NCBI RefSeq assembly: GCF_000496075.1
Contig: NZ_AWXZ01000029.1
Coordinates: 62,001 to 126,000, forward strand
Direction: 5' to 3'
Length of the DNA: 64,000 nucleotides
DNA from: Lutibaculum baratangense AMV1
GTDB taxonomy: Bacteria; Pseudomonadota; Alphaproteobacteria; Rhizobiales; Tepidamorphaceae
Both the position numbers and the translations under genes were made by a program. Below are positions 6,363-60,128 of this stretch, one piece after another (the stretch's first letter is position 1; each line of letters starts with the position of its first letter). The notes beneath the pieces were generated by a model that saw only the letters and a program-made list of their open reading frames with translations, did no database searches and was not told where the DNA came from.

Positions 6363-7130
6363 GTGCCCAAGGAAAAACTGCCGGTGATCGCGGTGCCGGC
6401 CGACATCCGAATTTTCGACAACTATCGCTGGCACGTGGCGGCGACGCCGTATGTCGACGCCGTCGCCAGGGTCGCGGGCACCGTGCCGTTCATCGTGCCG
6501 GCGCTCGGCGAGGCACTCGAGGTCGAAGCCGTTCTCGACAGGGTCGACGGCGTGATGCTCACCGGCTCGAAGTCGAACGTGCATCCCGCGCATTACGGCG
6601 TCGAGCCGACCGAGCGGCACGGGCCGTTCGACGAGGACCGTGATGCCACCACCCTGCCGCTCATCCGCTCGGCGATCGACCGCGGCCTGCCGCTCCTCGC
6701 CATCTGCCGCGGCATGCAGGAGCTGAATGTCGCGCTCGGCGGCTCGATCGCGACGGAGATCCAGGAGATCGCGGGTCGCGACGACCATCGCGCGCCGGAC
6801 CTGCCGACGCAGGACGAGCGCTTCGCCTTGCGCCACGAGGTGCGGGCGGTGCCCGGCGGGATCCTGGCCGGCATCGTCGGCGTCGAGCCCTTCCGCGTCA
6901 ATTCGCTCCACCGGCAGGCGATCGACCGGTTGGCGGAAGGCCTCGCCGTCGAAGCGACCGCCGAGGACGGCACGATCGAAGCCGTGTCGGTGGAGGGCGC
7001 GCGGAGCTTCGCCCTCGGCGTGCAGTGGCACCCCGAATACTGGGCCGGCAGCGAGCCCATGAGCCAGCGCATCTTCCGTGCCTACGGGGCGGCGCTGCGG
7101 GGCGACGCCCCGGCGCGCGCCGTGGCCTGA
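6363..7130 (+). CDS. class I glutamine amidotransferase-like hydrolase (PuuD/PF07722 family)
   Basis: This is a 255-residue cytosolic enzyme of the peptidase C26 group, typified by gamma-glutamyl-GABA hydrolase PuuD. The nucleophile is Cys115 in AICRGMQELNVALGG, with His223 and Glu225 in QWHPEYW. The substrate-side motif MLTGSKSNVHPAHYG is in the expected place. The start is a GTG at 6363 (VPKEKLPVIAVPADIR), with GAGAGAG upstream; the frame is open further but reads as low-complexity shadow. The isolated context gives no substrate, although a gamma-glutamyltransferase lies 4.5 kb downstream. Related enzymes cleave gamma-glutamyl amides or act in guanidine and polyamine routes. Confidence 0.88.
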   Translation: MPKEKLPVIAVPADIRIFDNYRWHVAATPYVDAVARVAGTVPFIVPALGEALEVEAVLDRVDGVMLTGSKSNVHPAHYGVEPTERHGPFDEDRDATTLPLIRSAIDRGLPLLAICRGMQELNVALGGSIATEIQEIAGRDDHRAPDLPTQDERFALRHEVRAVPGGILAGIVGVEPFRVNSLHRQAIDRLAEGLAVEATAEDGTIEAVSVEGARSFALGVQWHPEYWAGSEPMSQRIFRAYGAALRGDAPARAVA

Positions 7131-7165
7131 GCAGAGGCCAATTTGAGCCAGCGCAATTCGCCCGC

Positions 7166-7205
7166 TTCTCCCTTGCGGTAGCGTGATTTGCACCGCAAGG
7201 GAGAA
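7166..7205 (+). promoter_or_regulatory. 14-bp perfect hairpin that pairs the Shine-Dalgarno of the DUF6455 gene
   Basis: TTCTCCCTTGCGGT (7166-7179) and ACCGCAAGGGAGAA (7192-7205) are exact reverse complements separated by 12 bases. The right arm contains the GGGAG ribosome-binding site of the ATG at 7212, so the folded 5' leader would block translation. There is no T-run after it, so it is a poor terminator for the upstream gene that ends at 7130. Confidence 0.6.
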
Positions 7206-7211
7206 CGGCTC

Positions 7212-7634
7212 ATGAGGACGCAGACGAAGATCGGGACTTGGGTGCGCGGGGTCGGCCGCACGGCCGCCGGTTCACTGCGCGACGCGTGGGAGCGGGAGAC
7301 GGAGCGCCTGACCTTCTCCGACCTCGGTCGCGAGGAAACGGAAAGGCTCTTCCGCGACATCGGCCTGCCGCCGAACCAGGGCGTGAGCTGTCTCGACCAG
7401 CCTTTCGCGAACGAGGACCTCGCAGGCTCCCTGATGGAGGTGGTCGGGCTCGATCGCTGTGAGCTGACGGCTGCCCAGCCTGCGGTGATGCGGGACATCG
7501 AGCGCGTCTGCATGGCATGCACCGCCCGCCGCCTCTGCCGTCGCAATCTCTCCCGCGGCGAGGCCGCCCGCGCCTACCGGGCCTACTGCCCGAACGCCGG
7601 GACCTTCGAGGACCTCGAGGCGATCCATGCCTGA
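7212..7634 (+). CDS. DUF6455 family protein with C-terminal cysteine cluster
   Basis: This is a 140-residue soluble protein beginning MRTQTKIGTWVRGVGRTAAG. The second half has LDRCELTAAQPAVMRDIERV followed by CMACTARRLCRR and YCPNA. That is the conserved four- or five-cysteine arrangement of DUF6455, a family common in marine and soil Alphaproteobacteria. The spacing suggests a small metal or Fe-S site, but function is unknown. The ATG at 7212 follows GGGAGAACGGCTC. That ribosome site is sequestered in the hairpin 7166-7205, so expression may depend on temperature, a ligand or a small RNA. Confidence 0.8.
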   Translation: MRTQTKIGTWVRGVGRTAAGSLRDAWERETERLTFSDLGREETERLFRDIGLPPNQGVSCLDQPFANEDLAGSLMEVVGLDRCELTAAQPAVMRDIERVCMACTARRLCRRNLSRGEAARAYRAYCPNAGTFEDLEAIHA

Positions 7635-8469: not shown

Positions 8470-8561
8470 CGATCAGGTGGGCTGCACCTGATCGAAAGAA
8501 ATGGCTCACGATCCGAATTTGGAGCAGTCCCCGTCCAGATGGACCGATCTGGACGGGGACT
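8470..8561. repeat. two tandem palindromes (10-bp and 15-bp stems)
   Basis: CGATCAGGTG at 8470-8479 pairs with CACCTGATCG at 8485-8494. AGTCCCCGTCCAGAT at 8526-8540 pairs perfectly with 8547-8561 around a 6-base loop. The second lies 4 bases beyond the stop of the DUF1007 gene and may terminate it. The pair resembles dispersed intergenic palindromes known in Rhizobiales genomes, but no second copy is in this window. Confidence 0.5.
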
Positions 8562-8564
8562 GAC

Positions 8565-32827: not shown

Positions 32828-32841
32828 TTGACCGGGATCAA
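32828..32841 (+). promoter_or_regulatory. putative FNR/FixK-type box
   Basis: TTGAC-CGGG-ATCAA differs by one base from the consensus TTGAT-N4-ATCAA bound by FNR, FnrL and FixK. It lies 62 bases before the ATG of the YdcH gene, a plausible activator position. A short hairpin (CATCCGG/CCGGATG, 32870-32891) lies between the box and the start codon. Confidence 0.5.
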
Positions 32842-59994: not shown

Positions 59995-60128
59995 GCCTCT
60001 TTCCCTCCCTCGTCGGCGGCCGACACTGCCGCCACGTCTGGTCCCGTCCGGGCAGATTAGGCTTTTGCGAAACTTTGATGGAATAGGAGACGCTCAAACG
60101 TTGGCTTGACGATCCTCAAGGTGAAAGC

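Follow-up and report, generated by a model that had tools for sequence, protein, structure and literature searches.

The window analyzed here is a 64,000-nt stretch of the Lutibaculum baratangense genome. Within it, a perfect inverted repeat lies between a gene for a peptidase C26/class-I glutamine amidotransferase and a gene for a DUF6455 protein and extends over the ribosome-binding site of the latter. The features of this locus, together with a second hairpin used for comparison, are as follows.

6384 to 7130, + strand: upstream gene, peptidase C26/class-I glutamine amidotransferase; its start is uncertain (called at 6384, taken as 6453 in the Pfam scan)
7143 to 7156, + strand: FixK/FNR-type box TTGAGCCAGCGCAA, axis at 7149.5; matches the FixK2 consensus and differs by one base from the Bradyrhizobium box
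7166 to 7179, + strand: left arm of the inverted repeat, TTCTCCCTTGCGGT; between the box and the predicted -10 element, 5′ of the predicted start
7179 to 7184, + strand: predicted -10 element TAGCGT, in the loop of the repeat, 22 nt past the box; placed by its sequence and by the peak of TA positions at 21 to 22 nt in relatives
7190 to 7192, + strand: predicted transcription start, placed from the -10 element and from the 40.5 bp that separate box axis and start at nosR
7192 to 7205, + strand: right arm of the inverted repeat, ACCGCAAGGGAGAA; opens the predicted 5′ leader
7199 to 7205, + strand: Shine-Dalgarno sequence GGGAGAA, within the right arm
7212 to 7634, + strand: DUF6455 gene (ATG at 7212), 140 amino acids, with a helical C-terminal domain of the pattern CxxC...C...C
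240 to 279, - strand: comparison hairpin, bulged, over the Shine-Dalgarno sequence of a PAD_porph gene (ATG at 235)

As originally predicted from the sequence, the two 14-nt arms (7166 to 7179 and 7192 to 7205) are 100% complementary, enclose a 12-nt loop, and place the Shine-Dalgarno sequence (SD) in the 3′ arm. The accompanying claim that such a repeat is improbable by chance holds at start codons but not for intergenic DNA. We counted repeats with loops of 3 to 20 nt and arms of at least 9 bp at home-made gene calls covering 463 kb of the genome; a single one of 396 called starts, that of the DUF6455 gene, has its SD zone in a 3′ arm, and Markov shuffles lead one to expect 2.0 such repeats with arms of at least 9 bp, 0.6 at 10 bp or more, 0.3 at 11 bp or more, and 0.0 at 12 bp or more. 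In intergenic DNA, however, perfect repeats with arms of at least 14 nt number five in the 48.4 kb sampled (about one per 10 kb), and because long perfect repeats are this common, the one in the DUF6455 gap is less remarkable than first thought. The four others have loops of 3 to 6 nt, compared with 12 nt here. Elsewhere in the window, two perfectly paired 16-bp arms around a 6-nt loop (8525 to 8562) lie just past the stop codon of a minus-strand gene (9215 to 8565); they have no T run after them and probably form a 3′-end hairpin.

We also considered, and rejected, the idea that the repeat exemplifies a genome-wide design. Structures of -25 kcal/mol or lower that hide the SD were observed 37 times among 397 starts (including the minus-strand start at 235, added by hand), against 34.1 expected, so there is no genome-wide excess. 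The same design had been proposed for positions 240 to 279, where a hairpin does cover the SD but contains a one-base bulge (-34.5 kcal/mol). That hairpin likewise lies 3′ of a co-directional gene (DUF3008, 492 to 304), and the site listing for the window contains no FixK-type box near it.

The repeat is lineage-specific. Of the 397 genomes examined from the order, only that of L. baratangense itself has the 10-bp core of the arms, and the 8-bp arm pair with an intervening N6-30 occurs at a single place in this genome; a repeated element or shared operator was rejected on these grounds. A start codon could be assigned to 116 DUF6455 genes (L158, whose start is not assignable, was left out), and only that of the window has a repeat of at least 8 bp over its ribosome site. 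The original prediction had proposed looking for the anti-SD arm upstream of DUF6455 genes elsewhere and had named its absence from the closest relatives, with the gene retained, as a refutation; in the relatives available, which are of other genera, the gene is retained, and none of the 115 others has such a repeat. Any perfect repeat of at least 9 bp within 350 nt upstream was found at 33 of 116 other loci, none of which has one of at least 8 bp over the SD zone. A conserved RNA with covariation was rejected as well, as the repeat is in no relative and there is nothing to align. The nearest relative with a DUF6455 gene belongs to another genus of the same family, and the identity is 36%.

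Just upstream of the left arm, TTGAGCCAGCGCAA fits the FixK2 consensus TTG(A/C)-N6-(T/G)CAA as given in PMC5582078, and the box begins 69 nt 5′ of the DUF6455 ATG. Against TTGAT-N4-ATCAA it scores 7 of 10 (threshold 8) and lacks TCAA, and 182 of 385 sampled gene regions of the same genome reach this score; given so weak a match, the weight of the box rests on its orthologous position and on the spacing to the -10 element. TAGCGT is itself a weak -10 element at the usual distance of 22 nt. A sigma-70 scan found no promoter-like site at this locus, as expected because the promoter would be activator-dependent.

The predicted start is taken from the nosR promoter of Bradyrhizobium diazoefficiens, whose box, TTGATCCAGCGCAA, has its axis 40.5 bp from the mapped start and whose expression is abolished by deletion of the box (PMC5582078). 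Applied to the box axis at 7149.5, this distance predicts a start at 7190, and the placement of the -10 element is compatible with a box axis 40.5 to 41.5 bp before the predicted start, that is, with class II geometry. Since a start near 7190 lies two bases 5′ of the right arm, the main mRNA would be without the left arm. A start inside the right arm was the other outcome named as refuting the original prediction, and the predicted promoter points to an outcome of this kind. Across the 4.3-Mb genome, the arrangement box-N21-23-TANNNT occurs at eight places, versus two for a reversed control; two of the other places are 5′ of ccoG and of the gene for 5-aminolevulinate synthase, both familiar low-oxygen genes. 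ccoG/FixG belongs to the core FNR list of PMC2908626. Approximately 7 kb before the ccoG box site lies the gene for a FixK2-like regulator, L057, whose best match among PDB sequences is FixK2 (4i2o, E = 1.5e-27). Two more TTGA-N6-TCAA sites are present in the window, at 32828 to 32841 and 60106 to 60119.

Boxes of this type are frequent upstream of DUF6455 genes. Within 350 nt upstream, a box scoring at least 8 of 10 was found at 67 of 79 DUF6455 genes of the order (a count that includes the window gene as a miss at 7 of 10) versus 17 of 200 neighboring genes, with a background of 40 of 385 sampled genes of the own genome and 9.4% of Markov shuffles; at a score of at least 9, the counts are 51 of 79 and 5 of 200. 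The FixK2 consensus was present at 56 of 78 DUF6455 genes, 4 of 200 neighbors, and 23 of 384 sampled own-genome genes. When a -10 element at 21 to 22 nt was also required, these counts became 20 of 78, 0 of 200, and 5 of 384. The second DUF6455 gene of L. baratangense has the box TTGACGTGCGTCAA, and a relative from the same family (L002) carries TTGCGCGAGATCAA 73 nt 5′ of its ATG.

The box TTGATCCAGCGCAA is present in 26 of 26 Bradyrhizobium relatives, with an in-frame ATG 71 to 75 nt after the box start; in 18 of these 26, a second in-frame ATG, overlapping the SD, lies at 62 to 63 nt. The -10 TA follows the Bradyrhizobium box at 22 nt in 23 of 26 cases and at 23 nt in the other 3, compared with 22 nt in the window. 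Among DUF6455 relatives as a whole, the TA position peaks at 21 to 22 nt: a TA at 21 to 23 nt is found in 29 of 66 distinct promoters of a first set (12 at 21 nt and 17 at 22 nt) and in 25 of 27 of a second (21 at 22 nt and 4 at 23 nt). In the promoter-spacing and upstream-context comparisons the window box was entered by hand, its score of 7 being below the threshold of 8, and in the box comparison L002 and L009 are one gene, counted in both sets. A set of 38 loci, dominated by its 26 Bradyrhizobium members, has a box scoring at least 8 at 33. Several Bradyrhizobium loci (L013, L019, L021, L028, and L030) also carry near-identical GC-rich palindromes (CCTCTCCCGC...GCGGGAGAGG) tens of bases 5′ of the FixK box, which are perhaps terminators or REP-like repeats.

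Outside the order, a box scoring at least 8 was found at 12 of 12 tested DUF6455 loci in 11 genomes, a sample that comprises 12 of the 20 matches listed, represents each tandem cluster by its first gene, and has no separate control; three of these boxes lie 261 to 291 nt 5′ of the domain. The DUF6455 loci concerned, inside and outside the order, are L072 to L101, L122 to L168, L009 to L046, and L173 to L190. Tandem clusters of two to four DUF6455 genes occur outside the order in genomes G510, G454, G567, G587, and G495 (L172 to L176 and L185 to L193).

Folding was modeled for transcripts with different starts. RNA from 7160 to 7225 folds at -34.1 kcal/mol (z = -5.1). At 37°C, the mean unpaired probability of the SD is 0.04 in modeled RNAs that begin at 7131 or 7160 and 0.08 in one that begins at 7100, but 0.63 to 0.65 in RNAs that begin at 7190 to 7193. 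The hiding of the ribosome site that was originally predicted therefore applies to RNA begun before about 7160 and not to RNA begun at 7190 to 7193. At 60°C, the SD is still largely paired in the model (unpaired probability of 0.06 to 0.10 for starts from 7100 to 7160). A search of Rfam returned five matches, all under the gathering score; the best E value was 0.17, that of JUMPstart.

We consider it likely that a low-oxygen promoter of the class II FixK/FNR type lies across the repeat and that the normal message is free of the hairpin. The box at 7143 to 7156 would be the binding site of a FixK- or FNR-like protein, RNA polymerase would use the -10 element at 7179 to 7184 in the loop of the repeat, and transcription would proceed from about 7190. 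The normal message would then contain the right arm and the ribosome site without the left arm, so the hairpin could not form and translation would be open whenever the gene is transcribed. With a FixK/FNR promoter at the DUF6455 gene, oxygen or redox control would probably act at transcription, and a thermometer is disfavored. The redox link of the original prediction is thus probably right in the form of oxygen-responsive transcription; a translational hairpin switch on the gene's own mRNA is not supported. The repeat would matter only for read-through RNA from the C26 gene, in which the SD would be hidden, or would be a by-product without a role; the latter reading leaves unexplained a repeat over the SD that is longer than shuffles expect. 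An alternative promoter farther upstream would place the left arm in the mRNA.

Of the competing explanations, the one that fares best, although we regard it as doubtful, gives the repeat a function in this read-through RNA: transcripts arriving from the C26 gene would carry both arms and leave DUF6455 untranslated, while those from its own low-oxygen promoter would start inside the repeat and be translated. The C26 gene is co-directional and ends at 7130, a scan found no terminator-like site between the two genes, long RNA buries the SD and short RNA leaves it open in the model, and the repeat exceeds the length expected at starts from shuffles. There is also a precedent in gene e of phage T4, whose long early transcripts form a hairpin that covers the ribosome site, with 100-fold lower lysozyme synthesis, and whose late promoters coincide with the DNA for the 5′ strand of that hairpin (PMC3014915). 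By sequence, the window has the same anatomy, with the box at 7143 to 7156, the left arm at 7166 to 7179, and the -10 element at 7179 to 7184. However, the other 115 DUF6455 genes checked are without this arrangement, and arms of at least 6 bp shared by promoter spacer and leader occur in 19 of 93 DUF6455 promoters versus 14.6 expected, which is not an enrichment. The extent to which a longer RNA closes off the SD does not differ between loci with co-directional (n = 60) and divergent (n = 23) upstream genes (P = 0.47), and the direction of the upstream gene was accordingly discarded as a factor. For IS10-type control of read-through, no description was found in the available part of PMC8450116, and it does not serve as a precedent here. 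Were the read-through explanation correct, the hairpin would tie expression strictly to oxygen limitation, and the locus would be an example of a chromosomal gene insulated from its neighbor by a hairpin whose loop contains the promoter.

It is unlikely that the repeat is the 3′-end or terminator hairpin of the C26 gene and overlaps the next ribosome site by chance. It begins 36 nt past the C26 stop codon, in a genome where long perfect intergenic repeats are frequent (the five with arms of at least 14 nt in 48.4 kb), and perfect GC-rich repeats are also present 5′ of the box at several DUF6455 loci of Bradyrhizobium. Yet no T run follows the repeat, the terminator scan found none, the loop of 12 nt exceeds the 3 to 6 nt of the four other long repeats, and a terminator here would cover the DUF6455 promoter. 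More improbable again is a DNA operator, with a repressor bound to both arms across the -10 element and the start: the repeat is centered at 7185.5, over the -10/start region of the DUF6455 promoter, but its 8-bp arm pair (N6-30) is found nowhere else in the genome and its 10-bp pair in no other of the 397 genomes, and no relative has kept it. The least credible explanation is the originally suggested switch, a hairpin of the normal mRNA that would sense temperature, metal, or redox state. In its favor, the SD is fully paired if the left arm is transcribed. Against it, the predicted start lies 3′ of that arm, the modeled SD is still paired at 60°C (which makes a thermometer unlikely), 1 of 116 DUF6455 genes has the repeat, and Rfam yields no match at the gathering score.

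The DUF6455 protein itself matches PF20056 at 23.9 bits versus a cutoff of 23.7 and is borderline by Pfam alone. The cysteine cluster noticed in the original prediction is indeed present: C100, C103, C109, and C126, as well as N128, are found in the window protein and are invariant in an alignment of 42 sequences. Structure prediction gives a helical protein (mean pLDDT of 81.2 overall) whose C-terminal domain, which holds the cysteines, is modeled with high confidence (blocks of 95 to 98 over residues 71 to 140). Foldseek found no PDB match at an E value of 0.001 or lower for this structure, and searching the PDB sequences with a DUF6455 profile likewise produced no convincing hit (best E = 0.049). 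With its four conserved cysteines and an apparent low-oxygen promoter, the gene may encode a protein that binds a metal or an Fe-S cluster. Among the papers searched, one names DUF6455, in a table of ethylene-affected Azospirillum genes (PMC11819568); it is not named in the available parts of two FnrL papers (PMC2908626 and PMC5398030). We did not find a DUF6455-FNR link in print; older regulon lists, which use locus tags, could hold it unnamed, and we claim no priority for it.

With the low-oxygen promoter as the preferred reading, the suggested RNA switch gives way to a promoter model that is testable. The DUF6455 family also gains a context, as boxes at 67 of 79 genes in the order and at 12 of 12 tested loci outside it point to a role under oxygen limitation. 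We raise, only tentatively, the further possibility that the window contains an oxygen-regulated chromosomal gene of the T4 gene e kind and, more widely, that DUF6455 proteins are small four-cysteine helical proteins nearly always under FNR/FixK-type promoters, an uncharacterized part of the low-oxygen response.

These features can be set beside three known systems. RNA thermometers have the SD in the 3′ arm, as does the DUF6455 repeat; the latter differs in having 14 perfect pairs without a mismatch, in remaining closed when modeled at 60°C, and in probably lying off the main mRNA. T4 gene e resembles the window in that the gene's own promoter occupies the DNA for the 5′ hairpin strand, so that only longer transcripts fold. 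The DUF6455 gene, however, is chromosomal, its promoter is apparently of the low-oxygen type rather than a late phage one, and its read-through is hypothetical; similar leaders are predicted in T4-type relatives, in contrast to none among DUF6455 relatives. Compared with B. diazoefficiens nosR, a FixK2 class II promoter, the inverted repeat over the start is particular to the window, where the promoter is a predicted one. The nosR box, TTGATCCAGCGCAA, nevertheless lies one base from the TTGAGCCAGCGCAA of the window, and in the Bradyrhizobium DUF6455 genes the position of the box relative to the -10 element and the ATG agrees with that in the window.
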